From: a virus
Direction: 5' to 3' (one strand)
Virus record (IMG/VR): IMGVR_UViG_3300032246_000418
Span: 1-20,720 of that record
DNA length: 20,720 bases
Under the pieces are notes generated by a model. It did not search any database. It was not told where the DNA came from and was given only the letters and a program-made list of their open reading frames with translations. This document shows, piece by piece, positions 906-20,720 of this stretch (position 1 is the first letter of the stretch; each line of letters starts with the position of its first letter). Position numbers and translations under genes: made by a program.

Positions 906-1961
906 TTATGGTTGTTGGAACGGATAATAGCTTGAGCCACTATCATATGAGTAATTAGAATTTAAACCTGCATTTGGATCCCAACCACCGCCAGTATACC
1001 CTTCACTTTGTCCTGGTGTCCAATTCCAATTAGGACTTCCTGTTGTATCTGTAGGAGACCAAACAGAAGTATCAGTATTTCCTCCAGTCCATCCACCTAA
1101 TATAGAAGGCCATGAGCTTTGATCATATCCGCTTGTATCAATGTTATTAGACGATCCAATATCCCCAGTAGGAGTACCACCCAAATTACTTAACCCACTT
1201 AAACCAGATCCTATAGAACTTATTCCTTTAGTAATGTTACCCACTAAATCTTTAATACCTAATTGTTGAGCTAATCCTTGAAGTGCGTTAATCTGACCTG
1301 CTAAAGGAGCTCTGTAGTTTTGTGTTACAGTAGTTGGAGCATTAACGTTTCTTAAAATTTGTGCAAGGTTAGCTACAGTTTTTAATGGGGCTGCTTGTTG
1401 CATTTCACCTAATGTAGACATAGCAGTTGTACCTTGAGTACCTATGTTACCTAATGCAGTTCCAGCGTTGATTAAATTACTTTGGTTTTGTAATGCTGCT
1501 TGCATTTGAGCTGCATTTAGATCTGCTTGGGCTTTTCCAATCGCAGTATCTGCTGCAGACATGCCACGTAAACTTCCAAAATTGCCACCAGAGATTGCAG
1601 ATGCATCTGCAGGAGAGGTTATACCTGGAAGATTTTTTGATAATTGATCTTGTTGAGCTTTAAACAACCCACCTAATGGTGTTGCTGTGTTTGGTGTTAC
1701 AGTGCCATTATCACCAATGATCCAAGGATTAGCAGCACCATATGCAGCTTGGCTTAGATAATTTTGACCTTGCATAAATGGATTATTAGGTCCACTTAAA
1801 TTATTAATTGCTTGACCAGCAACTGTTTCATTTAATCCAGGAGCTGCTGCAGCACCAGTTGTAGCTTGTTTAACAAGATTTTGTTGCGCTTGGTCATACC
1901 AAGACGGCATCGTGGTGGTTTGACTAGTGTTTCCTGATATGAGGGAATCAAATGTAGACAT
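906..1961 (-). CDS. Ala/Gln/Asn-rich virion protein, candidate ejection protein
   Basis: This 351-residue protein has no recognisable enzyme motif. Near the N-terminus is PSWYDQAQQNLV (19-30), followed by a long Ala/Gln/Asn-rich, probably helical region (30-235). A low-complexity Gly/Ser/Thr/Trp/Tyr tail follows (245-351), ending in a Tyr/Ser/Pro-rich segment. No signal peptide or membrane segment is visible. The ATG overlaps the stop of the upstream 242-residue gene in a TAATG junction, suggesting translational coupling. It lies between a glycine-zipper protein and a protein with a transglycosylase motif, so I infer a component injected with, or packaged beside, the DNA, as P22 gp20 is. That role is inferred from position and composition, not homology. 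Confidence 0.5.
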   Translation of the reverse strand: MSTFDSLISGNTSQTTTMPSWYDQAQQNLVKQATTGAAAAPGLNETVAGQAINNLSGPNNPFMQGQNYLSQAAYGAANPWIIGDNGTVTPNTATPLGGLFKAQQDQLSKNLPGITSPADASAISGGNFGSLRGMSAADTAIGKAQADLNAAQMQAALQNQSNLINAGTALGNIGTQGTTAMSTLGEMQQAAPLKTVANLAQILRNVNAPTTVTQNYRAPLAGQINALQGLAQQLGIKDLVGNITKGISSIGSGLSGLSNLGGTPTGDIGSSNNIDTSGYDQSSWPSILGGWTGGNTDTSVWSPTDTTGSPNWNWTPGQSEGYTGGGWDPNAGLNSNYSYDSGSSYYPFQQP

Positions 1962-2689
1962 TATATATTTACCTTACGTTTAGAGATCGAAATGTATTCG
2001 AGGGGACCTTTGCTATCAGGTGGAAGTTTATCAGCTCTATTAGAATATTTATGCTCTCTAATAGTTTTTAAAAACTCATCGAGAACTTTTGAACCACTAT
2101 CATTACTACCATTGCCTAATGAAGAAACAACATCGGAAGGAATTACAAATTCGCCTGTGGCAAGCATAGCTGGAACGCTATCAGATGTGCCATCACCTTC
2201 ACCTTTAACGTAGGTATTTTTTAAACCACCTTCGCTATAAAATTCTGGATTATGTTCAGTTGCAGATAGTCCACCTTGTGGTGTTTCTTCAACTGGTTCA
2301 AAATCAATTGGACCACCATCAGCATAATAGCGTGGAGCATTTGTTGCATATAAGGAAGGGGCTGCAAAATGACCACCTAAATCAATTGGAGTAACTCCTG
2401 TAGATGGAGCTGTCATGCCTGCAGTTAAATTAGCTGGACCTACTCCACCCGCACCACCAACACCACCACTGCCACCAGCAGGAGCGTAACCACCACCAGG
2501 AACTCCTGAAGGAGCATCGCTAAGTAATGTATTAACACCGTTGGCAATACCAACAGCACTTCCAATAGCGCCTAATGCTTGAGCACCCGTAGTTATCCCT
2601 AAGGCACTACCAATGCCACCGATTGCACTACCAACAGCGCCAACAGCACTGCCAATACCGCCAACTACGGCGCTTATCGCACTAGACAT
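1961..2689 (-). CDS. Glycine-zipper virion protein with conserved phage C-terminal motif, candidate ejection protein
   Basis: The protein has 242 residues. Residues 1-55 are a run of small and hydrophobic residues in GxxxG-like spacing (glycine zipper), typical of membrane-inserting helices. Residues 60-90 are a Gly/Pro/Ala linker. Two short YxxGG motifs follow (YADGG 122-126, YSEGG 151-155). Residues 160-214 form the most conserved-looking part, with GDGTSDSVPAML, GEFVIPSDVV and LGNGSNDSG, a pattern I recognise from uncharacterised structural proteins of many environmental podoviruses. The C-terminus is basic. The gene starts inside the end of the cupin-SET gene (8-base overlap) and ends in a TAATG junction with the next gene. 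A role as a small ejected, membrane-active protein (compare P22 gp7) is inferred; assembly factor is an alternative. Confidence 0.5.
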   Translation of the reverse strand: MSSAISAVVGGIGSAVGAVGSAIGGIGSALGITTGAQALGAIGSAVGIANGVNTLLSDAPSGVPGGGYAPAGGSGGVGGAGGVGPANLTAGMTAPSTGVTPIDLGGHFAAPSLYATNAPRYYADGGPIDFEPVEETPQGGLSATEHNPEFYSEGGLKNTYVKGEGDGTSDSVPAMLATGEFVIPSDVVSSLGNGSNDSGSKVLDEFLKTIREHKYSNRADKLPPDSKGPLEYISISKRKVNI

Positions 2690-3626
2690 CTAAAATCTCC
2701 TTTTTCTTCCACTGTAACGCCATAGCTTGCCTATAGTCTATTGTAATCTCATCACCATTTTTACCACCCCTGCAACCTTCAATTTTTTTAATGGCTACTA
2801 AATTCATGTTGTTATTGGGTAATAATTCCATCTTAGCATTTGGATTTAAAGAATGGTTGGTATATCTACCAGCAATCGTTCTTTTTCCATCAATCCTAGC
2901 AGGGTAAATAACTTCACCTTCTAAAATTGGAGCTGTTGCAAAGAGCCCTTTGCCCTGAATTGGCGATCTATCTAATTTTATTTTTTGACTTGGATACTTG
3001 ACATCAATATGGTCAGAAAAATCTTTTGATAATTCAAATACCAAATCATGTGTGAATCCAAACTCAGCTAATGCTTTTAAGTAATCTTCTCTGTCTTTTT
3101 CAAAGAGAGGTACTGCAGCATCAAATTTTTTATTATCATCATCAATTGCTATTTGACATTCTTCAAACAACATTGACTCTAATGTTTCAATATCTGTTTC
3201 ATTGGTAGCATAAATATTTTGCCACACAGTATCTTGTAATGCTAGTGCAGATTTTCTGCCCGGAGGAGAGACAAAGCATAATGGAGCTTTGACTTGTGTC
3301 TTACTTCCGTCTTCTTTAAAGAAAATCATTTCACCCTGTAGCATGATATTCATATGATCATGTTTATGAACATGCCCTACAATAAGGGTGCCCTTAGGAA
3401 TAAAACATTCTCTGATGTATATTCCAGGACCAAATCTATGAATCACTGGCAAATCAGCTTGTTCATATTTTAAGCTTTCAGAGATAATTAACTCTGATGG
3501 AGCGTTTGCTAAAATATCAATCGCGCTTTGTGTAATGCTCGGTAAAACTTCTTTTTTATTCTCTTCCAAACTCGGACCTCCCTGTCCTATTGGTGCCACT
3601 ATTCCTAAGGGAGTAGGAAAGGGCAT
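2682..3626 (-). CDS. Cupin-SET domain fusion protein, putative protein-lysine methyltransferase
   Basis: This 314-residue protein has two recognisable parts. Residues 65-145 look like a phage-type cupin: GIYIRECFIPKGT, a His cluster (H85, H87, H89, H91), GEM at 98-100, and a PPG turn at 121-123 where the usual motif-2 His is replaced by Ser126. A charged linker covers 145-213. Residues 216-305 carry the SET hallmarks: GKGLFA (225-230), NHSLNPN (257-263) and DEITIDY (292-298) with the expected catalytic Tyr298, so S-adenosylmethionine-dependent lysine methylation is the expected chemistry. The ATG at 3626 has a weak ribosome-binding site. A strong GGGAGGT lies 6 bases before a TTG at 3569, so a 295-residue product starting at codon 20 is possible. 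It lies between the nozzle-side genes and the ejection trio, just downstream of a repeated control element. The substrate is unknown. Confidence 0.75.
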   Translation of the reverse strand: MPFPTPLGIVAPIGQGGPSLEENKKEVLPSITQSAIDILANAPSELIISESLKYEQADLPVIHRFGPGIYIRECFIPKGTLIVGHVHKHDHMNIMLQGEMIFFKEDGSKTQVKAPLCFVSPPGRKSALALQDTVWQNIYATNETDIETLESMLFEECQIAIDDDNKKFDAAVPLFEKDREDYLKALAEFGFTHDLVFELSKDFSDHIDVKYPSQKIKLDRSPIQGKGLFATAPILEGEVIYPARIDGKRTIAGRYTNHSLNPNAKMELLPNNNMNLVAIKKIEGCRGGKNGDEITIDYRQAMALQWKKKEILDV

Positions 3627-3655: not shown

Positions 3656-3689
3656 TACTAATGCACAAATATATGGTTTTACGCCCTAC
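3656..3689 (-). promoter_or_regulatory. Repeated intergenic element, copy A
   Basis: On the minus strand this reads GTAGGGCG, 16 AT-rich bases, then TGCATTAGTA, 34 bp in all. Both boxes and the spacer length are identical to copy B (10324-10357). It overlaps the last codons and stop of the 80-residue gene and ends 29 bases before the ATG of the cupin-SET gene. A promoter or other transcript-control element is the simplest reading, but sequence alone does not settle it. Confidence 0.5.
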
Positions 3690-3921
3690 TATTTACTATT
3701 AAAGCGAACTCATGAGCCCACTCTTGCCACGTATCAAAAGCCATTGGGTTGGGCGTTGGGAACTGAGCAAACGTTGGTGTCTGTGTAATATTTAATGCGG
3801 TATGTTGCCAATTATCTTCTGTATTATATGCTATAGCTTCTTGACCATAATACAATACTAGGTTACCATTATAGTCTTCCCAGCTAGAATAATCTGGATG
3901 GAATGGGAAGAACTGAGCCAT
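3679..3921 (-). CDS. Small aromatic-rich tail-associated protein, unknown function
   Basis: This 80-residue acidic protein is unusually rich in Trp, Tyr and Phe (FFPFHPDYSSWEDYNGNLVLYY near the start in essence, and WQEWAHEFALIVN near the end). I do not recognise a domain, and there is no membrane segment or signal. The ATG sits in a TAATG overlap with the stop of the 796-residue nozzle-like gene, so the two are probably translated in a coupled way. A structural partner of the tail tip is the natural guess. Its last codons overlap repeated element copy A. Confidence 0.6.
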   Translation of the reverse strand: MAQFFPFHPDYSSWEDYNGNLVLYYGQEAIAYNTEDNWQHTALNITQTPTFAQFPTPNPMAFDTWQEWAHEFALIVNSRA

Positions 3922-7582: not shown

Positions 7583-8203
7583 TTAAGGTTCCTGTATCGT
7601 TGTGTTTCGATCCACGCGGCGAGAATTGTCTTCTTTCTTCAACGCAGCTAATGAATCCATGTAGTATTGTTTCCAAACTGGAAGTTTATCTAACGCTTTT
7701 AAATAGCCTTGGGCTTGTAATAATGTTCCAAATAACATAGCCTGAGGACATTCGCGTGTAAATAAATTTTGTTGATTAGTTGAATCCAATGGTTGGATCA
7801 AACTGTAATATGTAATTTCAACTGGATAGTCTTGATCCGGAGTTGGAGCAATTGCCCAATTATTGTAGTCATAATCTGCGTAATATAAAGGTTGACCTGC
7901 ATCTGATTCAGATTGATATTGTGCAATATAATCTTGAGATCTAATAAGAATAGGTTGACCATTTGTCTTCATAGAAACAGTTTTACGCCATCTTGCTGGT
8001 TTTTGTAAAATTACTTCACCCGCAGCTAGAGTTGTTTCCACAACAGTAAGCTGTAAGTATGATTTAAGTTCTGCTGCAATTGCAGCCTCAGCTAAACCAA
8101 TTAATGATGGAATTTGAGCTACAAAGCCATCATCATCACGTTCCATGTAAGTGATGACATCAGCTATTAAGTTGTTATAGGTTTGTTGGTATGCGCCGCT
8201 CAT
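7583..8203 (-). CDS. Head-tail adaptor-like protein
   Basis: This 206-residue protein opens with a helical region (YNNLIADVITYMERDDDGFVAQIPSLIGLAEAAI, residues 9-42 in outline). A beta region has LAAGEVILQKPARWRKTVSM, then the pairing of PLYYADYDYNNW with IAPTPDQDYPVEITYYSL, and a helical C-terminus. That helix, beta, helix pattern with a membrane-free acidic start is what I recognise in podovirus adaptor proteins that line the portal exit. It overlaps the stop of the gp4-like gene in a TAATG junction. The family call rests on recalled motif patterns and gene order. Connector or neck protein is the safe statement. Confidence 0.55.
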   Translation of the reverse strand: MSGAYQQTYNNLIADVITYMERDDDGFVAQIPSLIGLAEAAIAAELKSYLQLTVVETTLAAGEVILQKPARWRKTVSMKTNGQPILIRSQDYIAQYQSESDAGQPLYYADYDYNNWAIAPTPDQDYPVEITYYSLIQPLDSTNQQNLFTRECPQAMLFGTLLQAQGYLKALDKLPVWKQYYMDSLAALKKEDNSRRVDRNTTIQEP

Positions 8204-9273
8204 TATCTAGTATAGTAACTTATGTTAGGTTGAAAATAAATTGGAGATTTATCTCTTTCTTCATTTGCAGCATCAGCTTCTAATTTAACCGCCATGCCTT
8301 CTAAATATCCAACACGATTTAAATCAATATCTGGAAGTTGTAGTGCAAGTTTGTGAGAAAGTGTTGCTTGAATAGAACCAATCCAACGATTAGGAACATA
8401 AAGCTCATTAGTCAATGAACCAACATCTGGCATTTGTTTTTCAATAACAAGTTGGAACATTTGGAAATTATTATTTGGTACAGGCCATAGATACATAGAA
8501 GGATCAATTGTACGATCGAACCAGTACTGTAATGATCTTTGACTAGGAAATTGTTTGTTTGGTAAGCTCCAGTAATCATCACGATTTAAACGAGCTAATG
8601 GAATGACTTGTTGGCTTTGATAAAAACCAATGTATCTAATTGAGAACGTTGGAGCAACTGTTTCTCTAAATCTCCAGTAGTAATATGCTTGTGTCTTATT
8701 GATAGGCACATAGTACCACTCTTTATCAGATAGAGTTAAAGTAGGGAGTGTCTCAATAACACTCCAATTTGTGCCATCATTACTTGCTTCTAGTACGAAG
8801 TTATAAGTAACGGAACCTAATGGTGCGTAAGCATTAAAGCCAGCGTAGAATACTCTTGTTTGCTGTGCGTATGAAGCGCCAAAATAGTTCTTTGAAATGG
8901 TAGATGTACCATAGGTATTTAAATCAAGAGCTTGATTTGTTACATTTTGAGATGCTGAATTATCTGTAGGAAGTGATGCTGTAAAGCTAGGATTAATTAA
9001 ATAAACCCAATTAGCCTCTCTGACATCAATGGTATCATCTGGCATCGATATGTATTGTTGAGCTGTTTGAGCACCTATGAGTTTATTCTCAAGGAGCCAC
9101 AAATTAACACCGCGATTAGAAAGATTCTGTAGTATATAAAATAGTGCCTGTTTACCAGCACCAATATATTCAGGTGTTATTTCTTCCGCAAGCTTACCTG
9201 CATCACGAAATGCATATGAAATAAGTTGATCAACATTAATCTTGGTTTGATTAGCCGTGCCTGAGTAAGCCAA
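8203..9273 (-). CDS. P22 gp4-like tail adaptor with inserted discoidin-like domain
   Basis: The protein has 356 residues. The N-terminal part (13-94) has the features I associate with gp4-like adaptors: VDQLISYAFRDAGKL, GAGKQALFYILQNLSNRGVNLW, and YISMPDDTIDV. The C-terminal part (222-356) resumes the same fold with IPLARLNRDDYW, YWFDRTIDPSMYLWPVPNN, LYVPNRW, and a helix with LSHKLALQLPDIDL. Between them, about 95-221 is a beta-rich segment with FVLEASNDGTNWSVIETL and YYYWRFRETVAPTFSIRYIGF, resembling an F5/8-type-C carbohydrate-binding fold. The start is TTG, with GGGAG 6-7 bases upstream inside the end of the 57-residue gene; no ATG occurs in frame until residue 77, so TTG is well supported. 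Gene order (adaptor, second adaptor, nozzle) supports the role. Confidence 0.65.
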   Translation of the reverse strand: MAYSGTANQTKINVDQLISYAFRDAGKLAEEITPEYIGAGKQALFYILQNLSNRGVNLWLLENKLIGAQTAQQYISMPDDTIDVREANWVYLINPSFTASLPTDNSASQNVTNQALDLNTYGTSTISKNYFGASYAQQTRVFYAGFNAYAPLGSVTYNFVLEASNDGTNWSVIETLPTLTLSDKEWYYVPINKTQAYYYWRFRETVAPTFSIRYIGFYQSQQVIPLARLNRDDYWSLPNKQFPSQRSLQYWFDRTIDPSMYLWPVPNNNFQMFQLVIEKQMPDVGSLTNELYVPNRWIGSIQATLSHKLALQLPDIDLNRVGYLEGMAVKLEADAANEERDKSPIYFQPNISYYTR

Positions 9274-9451: not shown

Positions 9452-10270
9452 TTAGTCCCCTGTGTGTGAAAAGTCACCGCGTCTATCCATGTCCGTAAGA
9501 GTTTTATTAATCTCTTCGTCTGAATATGGACCTTGACCTTTAGGCATGGTTGGTTTTGGACCTAATCCTGCAGCATTAGCTGCTTTAGCTGCTTGTTGTG
9601 CAGCTGCTGTTGATTTTGCAGCCTTAACTAAAGCTCTGTCAGTATCTGATACAGCACCGCCATCAGCATATCGATGGCTATCCATAATTTCTTTAGGAGC
9701 CATCGTGGGAGCAATCATACCCCCGTCCGAAGACTTTTTTGCTTTACCACCCTTCTTGTATTTATTAGGCTCTTCTTTAGCGCCAGATTTAGCCTCAGCC
9801 TTTTTGTCGCCTGTAGGTGGTACTTTTTTAATTGGATCTTTACCATCAGATGGTTTTGATTTTTCTTTAGATACATCAGAACCTTTAAAGTTTGGTCTTA
9901 ATGTAGCTTTGTTAGGAGCATCAGCTTTTTTAACGCCTGTAGCTTTAATCTTTTTAATTGTGTCAATGTCGCCAGAATCTTTTTTCATTTCAATAGCGCC
10001 ACCAGCTTTATATTTTTTAACTGTGCCTACTGCTTTTTTAGAACGACCACCTTTTTTCAATGTTGAGAGGTCTGTCTTTTCTCCTTCATGCTCTTGTTTA
10101 TCATGAAGTCTAAATGCTTTTTTAACGATTGCTTTATCTTGAGCAATATCAGCTTTTCCGCCTTCTGCGTACTTGCCACCTTTTTTCATTGCGCCGCCGC
10201 CACATTTTTTAACAGCTTTATCTACGCTACCGCCGCATTTCATTTTTGGCAGTGATTTGAATCCGTCCAT
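9452..10270 (-). CDS. Lysine-rich protein with repeated (K/R)YxxGG motifs, unknown function
   Basis: This 272-residue protein contains 54 lysines by my count (about 20%) plus many Gly and Ala. It looks largely disordered. Two Cys sit in CGG contexts at 12 and 23. Four short motifs recur: KYAEGG (33-38), KYKAGG (86-91), KYKKGG (170-175) and RYADGG (200-205). Residues 213-236 are an Ala/Lys helix, and the C-terminus is acidic (SDEEINKTLTDMDRRGD). A comparable YxxGG motif appears twice in the 242-residue protein. Scaffolding, DNA-condensing or internal virion roles are all possible, and I do not recognise a family with known function. It is the first gene of the connector block, 53 bases downstream of repeated element copy B. 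Its lysine content makes it an obvious, unproven candidate substrate for the cupin-SET enzyme. Confidence 0.55.
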   Translation of the reverse strand: MDGFKSLPKMKCGGSVDKAVKKCGGGAMKKGGKYAEGGKADIAQDKAIVKKAFRLHDKQEHEGEKTDLSTLKKGGRSKKAVGTVKKYKAGGAIEMKKDSGDIDTIKKIKATGVKKADAPNKATLRPNFKGSDVSKEKSKPSDGKDPIKKVPPTGDKKAEAKSGAKEEPNKYKKGGKAKKSSDGGMIAPTMAPKEIMDSHRYADGGAVSDTDRALVKAAKSTAAAQQAAKAANAAGLGPKPTMPKGQGPYSDEEINKTLTDMDRRGDFSHTGD

Positions 10271-14958: not shown

Positions 14959-17919
14959 TTAATACGCTTCAAATATAACTGCGCCTGTAGTGCCGTTTGT
15001 TGTTGTTGCGATATTTTGTGAACCACCAGCTCCAGCTCCAAACCCTGTACCTGCAAAACCAGCATTTGTATTAGTTGCAACTAAAGGTCCACCTTGACTT
15101 AGTATTGCAGCTGCTCCACCAGCACCTGAAAAACTGGTAGAGTTAGTTGTTGAGGATCCATAAGATGTTCCCCCAGCTTGACCAGCAATGTTAATATCAC
15201 CACCGGTTGCTGTACCTCCTGCAGGGCCAGCAGTAATGGAGTTAGCAAATGCAGTTGTAGTTCCGTTAGCACCACTAGATGCTGTAATGGTTGATATAGT
15301 TTGTGTACCTGATGAAACAGTTGTATTTGTACCAGATGCAGTTCCTACAGTATAAGTTAATGTATTGCCTGGAGTAACACCTGTTAGCCATTTAATAGCT
15401 ACACCACCACCTGAACCGCCTGTAGCACGAGAACCTACAGCACCAGCACCGTTACCACCAGGACCAATTGCTGTAACTTTAACTACAGTACACCCTGTTG
15501 GAATTGTATACGTTGCAGCCGAACCTGTTGTAAATACTGAAGCTACGCCTACGTTAGAAGTCCATGTTGGTGCGCCTGTACCGGCTGAAACTAATTTTTG
15601 ACCTGCAGTACCTGCCGCTGAAGTTGCCATTGCAGTCGTTGTAGATCCATAAACAATACCGCCTTGAGTTAATGCGGATGATTGACCTGTACCACCACCA
15701 TTTACACCTACGGTACCCCATGTAGGAGCTGCACTTGTTGTAGCTACTAATGCTTGACCTGTTGTGCCCGCGGCAGTAGTTGCCATTGCAGTAGTCGTTG
15801 AACCATAAACAACACCGTATTGTGTTAAGTTTGATGATTGTCCTGTACCGCCACCACCAACGCCTAATGTACCCCATGTTGGCGTTGCAGCAGAACCTCC
15901 CGATAACATTGGTTGACCAGCTGTACCAAAGTTGGTTGTACCGGTAGTTGCTGGTGATGTTCCTAAGTTAGTATTTAAACCGATAGCACCTGATGCATTA
16001 ATGACGTGAGCAGATCCTCCCGCAGCACCCCAAGAAAAATACGTTTTATATCCGTTGCCTGATCCAACAGCAATGTCACCATCATGGCCGGCAAAATAAA
16101 TAAGATTATTAATACCAAAAAAGTCAGCAGGAGTAGAGGCACTGAATACAGATGAGTTCATGCCAAACTCACCGTAGTAAGTTGAGTCTGTGCCTTGATC
16201 ATTACTTATTACATAGTTAGTCGAAGCACCAGCAGTTCCTGATTTATTTTGGATAACTAACTGATTGTAAGATCCTGCTGTTGATGTGCCGAATGAAGCA
16301 ATCGTATTTGAAGCATTAAAGCTTAATACAGGCGTTGTGCTTGTGACTGTATTTCCTGATAGTGTTGTAAAGTCACCAGAAGCTCTAGTAGTAGCACCTA
16401 TAGATACAGCATTTAATCCTGAAACTGTACTACCTAAACTAACCGCTGTTGCACCAAAAGTAATGGATGAGTTAGTTAGTGCACTATTAGGGATATTTGT
16501 TAATGTGTTTGTTGATCCACTAATTGATTTGTTTGTTAACGTTTGTGATCCTGTTAACGTAGCAACGGTTGAATCAATTGCAATAGTGACCGGAGAAGAG
16601 CCATTAAATGATGTGCCACTTAATCCTGTACCAATAGTTAACGTGCTTGTTGTAGACGCAGTCACTGTGGTTGAGCCGCCTAAGCTTACTGAATTACCAT
16701 TGATTGTTATAGCACTATTTGTGAGTGCACTGTTACCAATGTTAGTGAATGTATTTGTAAGACCACTCAACGATTTATTTGATAAAATCTGAGTACCTGT
16801 TAGCGTTGCTACTGTTGAATCAATAGTAATAGTAACAGCTGTTGATCCATTATAACTTGTACCTAATAGTCCTGTGCCGATTGTTAATGCGTTAGTGGCT
16901 GTTGCTGTTACTGTGGTTGATCCACCTAAAGAAACAGTATTTCCATTAACAACTAATGAGCTATTTGCTAATTGAGCATTTGACACAGTGCCACTTAATA
17001 CTGTTGTTGGTATTGTGGTTGATGCTGTCATAGCACTTGTACCATTACCGTACACATAACCTGTGAGTGTTGAAGCACCTGTACCACCATTTGCCACATT
17101 TAAAATACCGCTTAGTGTAAGTGTGCCGTTTGTAGTGATTGGACCACCACTAAAAGTAAATCCTGTTGAGCCACCGGAAGCATTGACACTTGTCACAGTT
17201 CCTGAACCAGCAACAGTTACCCAAGCTGTATCATAATCAGCCCCTGTTACTTTAGTTAAAATTTGACCTACTGAACCGCCTGCATTAACACCTGCGCCTC
17301 TAGGAATTGTAAAATCAAAAACAGCTGTACTTGATGTGCCTGAGTTAACTACAATTGCATTTGTACCTGGGTTTGATGTTGTTGTAGTACCTACCGCAAT
17401 CGTTGCTGCAGCGCCTGAACTACCTCTTGGAATTGCAAAATCAAACACTGCGGCAGATGATGTACCAACGTTAGTTACTACTGCAGAAGCTCCTGGAGCA
17501 GTGGTTGATGTTGTTCCGACTGCTATTGTTGCAGCAGAACCTGTGGCCCCTGCAGGTCCTGCAGGTCCTGTAGCCCCTGTTGGGCCCGTAGTCCCTGTTG
17601 GGCCTTGAGGTCCAATCACGTAGCCTGCATTTGTGGTACCGCCTGTTGAGTTAGTGAGAATTAAATAGCCACTGCCGTCAACTGCTGCTGATACATATCC
17701 TGGAATTGGTCCCACGGATGATGATGTGCCGTCTGTGTAGTAAAACACAAGATTGCTACCAACGAATGACACACTGGTGATTAATTTGCCAGGTGATACT
17801 GCATTGGCAATTAATGACACGAGCGCTTGTTTTGTCACACCAGCTTGAACGACTGCGGTGACTTCATTGCCAGTGAGCGTGGTTGCGACGGGTAATTGGG
17901 TTATTGGTTGATCAGCCAT
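14959..17919 (-). CDS. Long tail fibre with collagen-like segment, tandem repeats and glycine-rich tip
   Basis: The protein has 986 residues. Residues 1-45 (MADQPITQLPVATTLTGNEV...) look like the virion-attachment end. Residues 103-127 are eight collagen-type Gly-X-Y triplets. Three repeat families follow: 42-residue units (129-166, 171-208), 82-residue units (about 319-400, 401-482 and a partial third), and 52-residue units (681-732, 733-784). A less repetitive segment at 500-660 includes YYGEFGMNSS and GYKTYFSWG. Residues 800-986 form a glycine-rich tip ending GAVIFEAY, with GGSGGGVAIKWL, like polyglycine-type adhesin domains that bind receptors. It is the largest fibre in the window and likely trimeric. 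Its DNA is less AT-rich than the neighbours because of Gly, Ala and Pro codons. Confidence 0.8.
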   Translation of the reverse strand: MADQPITQLPVATTLTGNEVTAVVQAGVTKQALVSLIANAVSPGKLITSVSFVGSNLVFYYTDGTSSSVGPIPGYVSAAVDGSGYLILTNSTGGTTNAGYVIGPQGPTGTTGPTGATGPAGPAGATGSAATIAVGTTSTTAPGASAVVTNVGTSSAAVFDFAIPRGSSGAAATIAVGTTTTSNPGTNAIVVNSGTSSTAVFDFTIPRGAGVNAGGSVGQILTKVTGADYDTAWVTVAGSGTVTSVNASGGSTGFTFSGGPITTNGTLTLSGILNVANGGTGASTLTGYVYGNGTSAMTASTTIPTTVLSGTVSNAQLANSSLVVNGNTVSLGGSTTVTATATNALTIGTGLLGTSYNGSTAVTITIDSTVATLTGTQILSNKSLSGLTNTFTNIGNSALTNSAITINGNSVSLGGSTTVTASTTSTLTIGTGLSGTSFNGSSPVTIAIDSTVATLTGSQTLTNKSISGSTNTLTNIPNSALTNSSITFGATAVSLGSTVSGLNAVSIGATTRASGDFTTLSGNTVTSTTPVLSFNASNTIASFGTSTAGSYNQLVIQNKSGTAGASTNYVISNDQGTDSTYYGEFGMNSSVFSASTPADFFGINNLIYFAGHDGDIAVGSGNGYKTYFSWGAAGGSAHVINASGAIGLNTNLGTSPATTGTTNFGTAGQPMLSGGSAATPTWGTLGVGGGGTGQSSNLTQYGVVYGSTTTAMATTAAGTTGQALVATTSAAPTWGTVGVNGGGTGQSSALTQGGIVYGSTTTAMATSAAGTAGQKLVSAGTGAPTWTSNVGVASVFTTGSAATYTIPTGCTVVKVTAIGPGGNGAGAVGSRATGGSGGGVAIKWLTGVTPGNTLTYTVGTASGTNTTVSSGTQTISTITASSGANGTTTAFANSITAGPAGGTATGGDINIAGQAGGTSYGSSTTNSTSFSGAGGAAAILSQGGPLVATNTNAGFAGTGFGAGAGGSQNIATTTNGTTGAVIFEAY
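15568..15879 (-). repeat. 52-residue tandem repeat in long fibre
   Basis: Two in-frame units start with TWGTLGVGGGGTGQSS and TWGTVGVNGGGTGQSS, continue VYGSTTTAMAT, and are followed by a third TW at the next period. The DNA period is 156 bp. Confidence 0.75.
16474..16965 (-). repeat. 82-residue tandem repeat in long fibre
   Basis: Two full units, each with SLGGSTTVTA, LTIGTGL, IDSTVATLTG and NKSxSG, plus a partial third unit (SSITFGATAVSLGS). The DNA period is 246 bp. Confidence 0.75.
17296..17535 (-). repeat. 42-residue tandem repeat beside the collagen segment
   Basis: Two units, AATIAVGTTSTTAPG ... VFDFAIPRG and AATIAVGTTTTSNPG ... VFDFTIPRG, directly follow the Gly-X-Y stretch. The period is 126 bp. 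Confidence 0.8.
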
Positions 17920-19248: not shown

Positions 19249-20720
19249 TTAAAATGATACTTCAGTTGTTTCTATATTAGCAACAGTTCTAATTGTAGTT
19301 GCTGCTTGTCCTGTGAAAGTGATTGCTAATCCGCCATTAGTAGTATCTGCTGTAGCAGTTACTGTCCATGTAGAAGCACCTGCATCTGCCGCAATAACTG
19401 TTGTTGTTACAGAACCTACAATTGATGTTGCTGCAGCATTAGCACCGCGTTTAATAGCGCCTTCTAATGTCCACGCCTTAGTATTACCCCCACCTGTTAC
19501 GTTAGATATTACTTTAGCTTTAAAGTAGTATGCAGAGTTGTTAGGTAATATAATTTGATTAGTAGTATTTGCAGCAGATGAATCAGAAGTTAATACCGTA
19601 GCTGTTGCATCCGTGGTTTGTCTAGCTAAAACTAATATAGTTGATTGAGATAATCCATTATTTCCTAAAGGAGCCACGTTGGCAGCAAAGACTAAAGCAC
19701 CATTTATTGATCTACTTGTTCCATTATACCCTATTAGATTACTATAAGATGAATTACTAATATTATTTCCACAACCTAAAATTACAGCACCATATCCTGT
19801 AGCTTGGTTATTTACGCCACCACAAACAACGGACGCTGTTCCTGAAGCAACATTGCCTGAAATACCTGTTCCGTAATAACCACCACCACCAATAAATGCG
19901 CTATAACCTGATGCTACATTTCTAATACCACCACATACGGTAGACCAATCTCCTGATGCAACATTTCTATTAGCCGCAGTTCCTGCATCACCACCGCCGC
20001 CGATGAATGAGTATGATCCTGTAGCTGTATTATTACCACCACCTACTACTACGCCGTGTGGTGTATAGAATGATAGTGTTGTAGCGCCTGAACCTGAAGC
20101 GGCTTGAGATAAAGTAAGAGTAGTTCCTGATATAGCGGCAACATAAGTATTTGGAAAGCTTTGAATATTTGTTCCTATAATAAGCTGTCCTACTTTAATA
20201 GAAGCATTAGAAGCATCTAAAGTAAATGTTGTAGTTCCATTAGCTGTACCTGTTTGAGTAGTTACTGCTGCATTAGCTGTTCCTGAATTAGCGTATCCAT
20301 TACCAATAAAGTTATATACACCTAATGCATTATTGCCATATCCAGCACCAATAAAGTTATAATTATTAATAGCTGTAATTCCAGTTATGTTATTTGCTAT
20401 TCCTCCTGCAATTACAGATGTTCCTCCACTATTAGTATTTTGTGTACCACTTAATACTCCGCCTGAAGTACCTGTACATGTATTAACATATCCTCCTGCA
20501 ATAACAGAAGCGTATCCACTAGCTACTTGGGCTGCAGCAGTTCTACTCATTTGCCAATCTACAGCATAACTACCACGCGCATTACCGCCTGTTGCTGTTC
20601 CGTCATTTAGCTGGGCTTGGAGGGCGCCTGTGCCTTTTGGTTGAAGTACTAATGAGATGTTAGTGTCTGTTCCTAAAGCATTTATGCTAGGTGCATTTCC
20701 TGTAGCCGCACCACCTGCAA
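19249..20720 (-). CDS. YadA-head-like tail fibre (5' partial)
   Basis: The frame is open to the right edge, giving at least 490 residues; the first ATG in view (20550) is internal, since upstream codons continue a typical fibre sequence (LVLQPKGTGALQAQL, ARGSYAVDWQ). From 20550 down come repeated units of the form NxAxGxxSxVxGG (SGYASVIAGG, TGSYSFIGGG, SGYSAFIGGG), the left-handed roll of trimeric adhesin heads. The roll is interrupted at about 20265-20059 by a separate beta segment (NGTTTFTLDASNASIKVGQLI ... TLTLSQAASGSGATTL). The last 140 residues (ILVLARQTTDATATVLTSD, AWTLEGAIKRGANAA, TVTATADTTNGGLAITFTG) are a frequent phage fibre C-terminal domain. A host-binding fibre is likely. Confidence 0.75.
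   Translation of the reverse strand, partial: AGGAATGNAPSINALGTDTNISLVLQPKGTGALQAQLNDGTATGGNARGSYAVDWQMSRTAAAQVASGYASVIAGGYVNTCTGTSGGVLSGTQNTNSGGTSVIAGGIANNITGITAINNYNFIGAGYGNNALGVYNFIGNGYANSGTANAAVTTQTGTANGTTTFTLDASNASIKVGQLIIGTNIQSFPNTYVAAISGTTLTLSQAASGSGATTLSFYTPHGVVVGGGNNTATGSYSFIGGGGDAGTAANRNVASGDWSTVCGGIRNVASGYSAFIGGGGYYGTGISGNVASGTASVVCGGVNNQATGYGAVILGCGNNISNSSYSNLIGYNGTSRSINGALVFAANVAPLGNNGLSQSTILVLARQTTDATATVLTSDSSAANTTNQIILPNNSAYYFKAKVISNVTGGGNTKAWTLEGAIKRGANAAATSIVGSVTTTVIAADAGASTWTVTATADTTNGGLAITFTGQAATTIRTVANIETTEVSF

Follow-up and report, generated by a model that had tools for sequence, protein, structure and literature searches.

Phage ejection proteins must survive in the capsid, pass out by way of a narrow nozzle, and then fold again as a channel spanning the host envelope. 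Our literature search found no report of methylation as a post-translational control of these proteins and no paper describing a cupin-SET protein. The closest described relative of the protein reported here is PHROG 34170, a family that includes gp30 of Rhodoferax phage P26218 and that has the same two-domain layout over residues 50 to 304 in the same slot, between the nozzle and a DNA-ejection protein. A homologous cupin occurs in the same operon slot in proteins labeled short tail fiber or tail fiber adhesin (PHROGs 12032 and 24280, PHA00672, Vibrio phage VvAW1, and Thalassomonas phage BA3). For the SET half, the nearest viral counterpart is vSET of chlorella virus PBCV-1 (PDB 3kma), a minimal SET domain that methylates histone H3K27.

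We analyzed a window of 20,720 nucleotides, positions 1 to 20,720 of IMG/VR virus record IMGVR_UViG_3300032246_000418, in which one gene encodes a cupin-SET fusion (Table 1). From sequence and structural modeling, we propose, with a probability of roughly 0.55, that its product is a late phage protein-amine methyltransferase acting on the phage's own ejection or tail-tip machinery.

Table 1. Features of the cupin-SET gene and its neighbors in the window
Feature	Positions	Strand	Basis
Cupin-SET fusion gene, whole ORF with stop, 314 aa, ATG start	2682..3626	-	PHROG 34170, E 1.6e-81
N-terminal 30 residues, mostly disordered	3537..3626	-	pLDDT <50 at residues 8-29
Cupin barrel, residues 57-142	3201..3458	-	AlphaFold2 model; HP0902; TM1459; PHROG 12032/24280
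Helical segment, residues 158-205 (178-205, SET module)	3012..3155	-	Model; segment also found before stand-alone SETs
Mini-SET domain, residues 208-300, without SET-I insert	2727..3005	-	PF00856; MLL1/vSET structure matches; catalytic-residue conservation
Next gene, glycine-rich 242-aa protein in gp7-like ejection-protein position, start MSSAISAVVGG	1961..2689	-	Position and N-terminus
351-aa gene after the 242-aa gene, probable second ejection/internal protein	906..1961	-	Position only
80-aa protein between nozzle and cupin-SET	3679..3921	-	Similar-looking 78-aa protein at this place in Caulobacter phage GB2A (judged by eye)
Nozzle/packaged-DNA-stabilization-like protein, 796 aa	3921..6311	-	phrog_3287, E 5e-22; relatives annotated phage stabilization protein
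SU10-type head-tail adaptor	7583..8203	-	PF24175, E 2e-20

A preliminary description of the window had read the gene as a His-rich cupin joined by a charged linker to a SET domain. The motifs on which it relied lie at the residues it gave: H85, H87, H89, and H91, PPG at 121 to 123, and Ser126 at the motif-2 His position in the cupin, and GKGLFA at 225 to 230, NHSLNPN at 257 to 263, and DEITIDY at 292 to 298 in the SET half. It had also named a SET fold at residues 214 to 305 beforehand as one of the points on which its reading would stand or fall. An AlphaFold2 model built with 57 aligned sequences (mean pLDDT, 88.6; pTM, 0.84) places such a fold at residues ∼208 to 300 (pLDDT >90), with MLL1 as the best PDB match (Z, 10.6; rmsd, 2.1 to 2.3; 32 to 33% identity; 81 residues aligned), and the SET half passes the curated cutoff of PF00856 (32.7 bits against 22.4; E, 1e-7), with relatives scoring up to 41 bits. 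The cupin call was upheld by the predicted fold, in which the barrel at residues ∼57 to 142 aligned with HP0902 (Z, 9.0; rmsd, 2.5; 85 residues) and had TM1459 as its top Foldseek match (E, 4e-5) with other cupins near the top of the list, but not by the Cupin_2 profile (PF07883), whose 15 bits fell below the curated cutoff of 27.2. The stretch described as a charged linker turned out to be helical, with pLDDT >90. Because residues 178 to 205 also precede stand-alone SETs (loci L113, L126, and L106), we assign them to the SET module rather than to a plain linker. PHROG 34170, which has no functional annotation, spans residues 50 to 304, a full two-domain match that makes the protein a member of a real, catalogued family; the cupin half alone matches the tail fiber-labeled PHROGs 12032 and 24280.

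The SET half retains what would be needed for catalysis. Both the AdoMet motif NHSxxPN and the catalytic Tyr of the ExTxDY motif are present in the window protein. Across 76 unique fusions, S221, G225, G227, F229, R249, G253, R254, N257, and E293 are invariant, H258 is kept in 75 of 76 and Y298 in 75 of 75, and the catalytic residues are kept in more distant SETs as well; we assessed the Tyr298/Asn257 pocket from fold alignment and conservation. In close homologues, the cupin had a dN/dS of 0.05 and the SET domain one of ∼0.07. Near-invariant catalytic residues together with this low ratio make it very probable that the SET domain is an active enzyme.

The domain lacks the SET-I insert that separates the N- and C-terminal SET halves, and solved SET enzymes have 17 to 34 more residues. 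In the model, residues 208 to 299 (92 residues) align to 124 residues of MLL1, and residues 209 to 299 (91 residues) align to 125 of SET8. The SET-I region is represented by 9 profile positions versus 43 residues in MLL1, and the stretch from G227 to N257 measures 31 residues in 96 of the 101 family members counted, with 9 further, mis-cut rows left out. Without SET-I, part of the usual peptide groove is missing, and we do not place the window SET among the canonical SET-I-groove enzymes of the MLL and SET8 type.

The preliminary description had suspected a nonstandard metal site from Ser126. Across the family, none of 83 fused cupins has a His at motif 2, and their HxH positions are mostly H-x-Q. 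The residues listed for 160 aligned cupins show no motif-2 His. H87 is Q or Y in 75 of the 83 fused forms, and H139 is replaced by Y in most, giving a typical pocket of H85-Q87-H91-Y139 in fused cupins and K85-H87-H91-H139 in lone cupins; the H85-H87-H91-Y139 pocket of the window protein is rare. The four ligands that define a metallocupin (HxHx3-4E in motif 1 plus the motif-2 His) do not occur together here, and we do not class the domain as one. These alignments show no conserved metal site and so give no support to a metalloenzyme role for the cupin. The earlier picture of a protein-modifying enzyme, with the cupin as a targeting or sensing part, is partly supported: the SET fold, catalytic residues, selection, and genomic slot are consistent with a modifying enzyme tied to virion assembly, whereas the cupin as a general metal site is not borne out. 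A targeting role for the cupin is plausible, since the same cupin occurs alone in the same slot (>590 contigs) and carries a PHROG tail fiber/adhesin label. In the loci examined, no C-terminal fusions of the cupin other than SET were seen.

A single-sequence search of viral contigs gave no match. An alignment-based search recovered at least 406 IMG/VR contigs with relatives of the fusion, and a cupin-only query recovered >590 IMG/VR stretches, two sets that may overlap. The arrangement is therefore not special to this window but belongs to an existing PHROG found in hundreds of contigs, and the cupin-SET family is widespread in freshwater viruses. Among phages, seven records carry the full or near-full fusion and, with PH1 duplicated, represent about five distinct genomes: Rhodoferax phage P26218, two Manatee Spring podovirus genomes, Phage zth2-2, and Pseudoalteromonas phage PH1. 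The remaining matching phage records contain the cupin part only.

Gene order in ∼100 loci runs adaptor, nozzle, small ORF or fiber, cupin(-SET), ejection protein, and two larger internal proteins, so that the placement between nozzle and ejection genes first noted in the window is kept in ∼100 relatives. Lone cupins take this place too, with the nozzle on one side and the first ejection protein on the other. Caulobacter phage GB2A, related via its nozzle, has the nozzle, a 78-aa protein, and a tape-measure-labeled protein with no cupin or SET between them, which makes the cupin-SET gene an accessory insertion there. In the tail modules of two siphovirus contigs (L100:4203-9953 and L101:4044-9758), the fusion is flanked by an L-like minor tail protein on one side and a J-like tail-tip protein on the other, and the start of the J-like protein, MSS(F/I)VA, resembles those of podovirus ejection proteins.

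Other architectures include split, adjacent cupin and SET genes (L098, a Paraburkholderia prophage, and L126/L127) and stand-alone SETs, near ejection genes in L099 and in another marine phage type in L111 to L130. The recurrence of the association in several architectures supports a functional link between cupin and SET. In L098 (Paraburkholderia ferrariae; 7629-9076), the two genes overlap within a prophage-like region near a helicase gene and are not beside a nozzle. L106 (5739-6353) encodes a SET domain, ∼75 aa, and then an apparent cupin start, a probable reversed order for which the evidence is incomplete, as the partial ORF ends 2 nt before the contig end. L113 (4870-6291) and its relatives in L111 to L130 have a stand-alone 130-aa mini-SET upstream of terL and portal, which directly adjoins two ORFs, one a GroES-like co-chaperonin (187 aa) and the other 2OG-oxygenase-like (158 aa; PF13640 E, 0.001, short of the curated cutoff). 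We considered repeated independent fusion and do not claim it: the cupin tree shows two fused groups, but an AU test does not reject a single one (P = 0.40).

In the window, the 242-aa gene that follows cupin-SET overlaps it by 8 nt. Its product has only weak, tape-measure-like PHROG matches, and the 351-aa protein after it gave no convincing family match in Pfam and PHROG searches. An overlap of ∼13 nt with the ejection gene is frequent for the cupin or SET gene, as at L007, L126, and L107, so that its final codons, C-L-G-stop or C-Q-E-stop, become M-S-W-V or M-S-G-V when read in the frame of the ejection gene. Elsewhere on the minus strand of the window are a 272-aa, very Lys/Gly-rich, histone-tail-like protein with KKGGK and AKKSS repeats (9452-10270) and two long, low-complexity proteins of 986 and 433 aa that are collagen-like or repetitive and fiber-like (14959-17919 and 19249-20550). 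The 272-aa protein was rejected as a general substrate, with no homologue in 32 SET-positive and SET-negative records or in the phage collection, although this is a weak negative because low-complexity filtering may mask matches. Cupin-SET had no match to a defense system.

The SET domain has a correlate in the protein encoded next. That protein starts MS(G/A/S)(V/I)ATAIVG after cupin-SET and MS(W/V/F)VA(A/V)A after a lone cupin. Among distinct MS-initiated proteins with a scored third residue (85 fused and 90 cupin-only), residue 3 is G, A, or S in 84 of 85 fused loci and W, V, or F in 87 of 90 cupin-only loci, and the window, with MSSAISAVVGG, fits this pattern. The exceptions are the split-SET locus L126 (W3), the fused loci L103 and L104 (V3), and a small number of cupin-only loci that have A3 or G3. 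The information on SET presence amounts to 0.89 bit at residue 3 and 0.35 bit at residue 6, with almost none at residues 2, 5, and 7. On a tree of the ejection-protein body, with the tip left out, SET status changes 18 times; in 13 independent contrasts on well-supported branches, residue 3 followed SET status in 11, did not differ in 2, and went the opposite way in none (sign P = 0.001, a descriptive value, as it was the pattern that prompted the test). The cupin tree offered only 3 independent contrasts. Gene overlap was ruled out as the sole cause, as the pattern persists without it. Cupin-SET and the opening residues of the adjacent ejection protein thus seem to evolve jointly. The mature N-terminus of the ejection protein could be a substrate or a docking site, or its first codons could simply be inherited with the upstream gene. 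A conserved lysine in the ejection protein was also considered as a substrate and rejected (best column, 58%, and 40% in cupin-only loci). Because no well-conserved lysine is present, the alpha-amino group would be the better candidate if the ejection protein is the target. Rubisco methyltransferases provide the precedent for a SET enzyme that methylates an N-terminal alpha-amine.

According to the reading that we favor, the cupin-SET protein would be made late, its cupin would serve as a structural domain docking the enzyme on the ejection or tail-tip assembly, and the SET domain would bind S-adenosylmethionine and methylate an amino group on a protein of that assembly. The best single candidate target would be Ser2 of the adjacent ejection protein, methylated on its alpha-amino group after Met removal; a lysine elsewhere in the virion would be the alternative. 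This specific N-terminal target is a tentative proposal that we consider doubtful. It would mean, with equally little confidence on our part, that a SET domain without SET-I alpha-N-methylates the mature N-terminus (Ser2-small-Val/Ile-Ala...) of an injected protein and that a bulky residue 3 plays the same part, unmodified, in cupin-only phages. The broader phage-directed reading is supported by the predicted folds, catalytic conservation, purifying selection, the conserved slot, and residue-3 covariation, as well as by the position of the L100 and L101 fusions directly before a J-like tail-tip protein. Counted against it are the residue-3 exceptions, the missing SET-I, the lack of a well-conserved ejection-protein lysine, the small number of contrasts on the cupin tree, and the location of the N-terminal tip within a few codons of the SET gene end, so that it can be inherited with the SET gene.

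That last point underlies an explanation to which we give a substantial chance, though short of even: the residue-3 signal could be linkage only, with the first codons carried along with the upstream cupin(-SET) by recombination at the ejection gene's conserved 5′ end and the substrate lying elsewhere. The tip lies no more than tens of bases from the SET gene, with frequent overlap, the body of the ejection protein is shuffled with respect to both (as in the SET-status changes on its tree), and the split locus L126 breaks the rule. Linkage would fit less well with an association concentrated at residues 3 and 6, with a residue 3 that varies inside each class but keeps its size class (G/A/S versus W/F/V), and with a pattern that holds where the genes do not overlap; it would also explain the correlation but not the function of the enzyme. 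The substrate could instead be a host protein, such as a component of translation, the envelope, or defense, with the virion operon setting only late timing or packaging for injection. Stand-alone mini-SETs in other marine phages without cupin or slot (the L113 group, with its GroES-like and 2OG-oxygenase-like neighbors) and in pelagiphage Kolga, where the gene lies outside the cupin slot at a strand switch, are consistent with this idea. Nevertheless, the fused gene holds one slot in phage types that are unrelated, and the sole covariation we detected involves the protein encoded next by the phage itself; we regard a host target as unlikely.

Two further explanations concern the domains themselves. 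The tail fiber and adhesin labels of the cupin homologues in PHROGs and the missing SET-I groove would suit a structural virion part, in which the cupin is a short tail fiber or collar and the SET is a catalytically dead binding or plug domain. For those labels, however, we found neither an experiment in the literature, including that on phiAP1, nor virion proteomics, and AdoMet-pocket and catalytic residues kept near-invariant across divergent members under strong purifying selection would be unneeded in a dead domain, making this explanation quite improbable. Finally, JmjC demethylases share the double-stranded beta-helix fold with cupins, and this shared fold, along with the 2OG-oxygenase-like ORF beside L113-type SETs, would allow the cupin to be an Fe(II)/2OG-type demethylase or oxygenase, an eraser paired with the SET writer. 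The sequences disfavor it: the cupin lacks the HxD/E...H facial triad of 2OG/JmjC enzymes, having no acidic residue at the corresponding position, and most fused cupins have lost both H87 and H139. We consider it highly improbable.

If the reading with the N-terminal target is true, the phage infection channel would carry a methyl cap, which would be the first protein-methylation step known in the assembly of a phage ejection machine. A widespread, putative phage methyltransferase in this operon slot, predicted to have a minimal SET fold and paired with a covarying site on its neighbor, makes a specific, testable case, and it would also bring SET chemistry to a domain roughly one quarter shorter than those of MLL1 or SET8.

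Compared with known systems, the slot has counterparts in P22 gene 14 (DUF2824) and T7 gene 13 (PF11090), which lie just before the first ejection gene (gp7 and gp14, respectively) but have no sequence relation to cupin or SET. These two genes (L134:8911-9366 and L133:1308-1724) may share a GNAT/acetyltransferase-like fold; T7 gp13 matched an acetyltransferase at chance level (E, 0.39). The tail fiber-labeled cupins share the cupin and the slot but differ in lacking SET, in having the lone-cupin pocket, and in preceding MSW, MSV, or MSF rather than MSG or MSA ejection proteins. The phage SET resembles vSET (Z, 9.9; rmsd, 2.1; 33% identity over 81 residues), and unlike vSET it is shorter (87 versus 104 residues in structural alignment), is joined to a cupin, follows a helical pre-SET segment, and likely acts on a target other than a histone. 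Within PHROG 34170, the window member is divergent (40 to 52% identical to its best relatives) and has the minority three-His cupin. The fusion family was thus already catalogued, without a function, and what is new here is that SET-I and the cupin metal site have been lost, together with the analysis of the slot and the covariation with the neighboring ejection protein.
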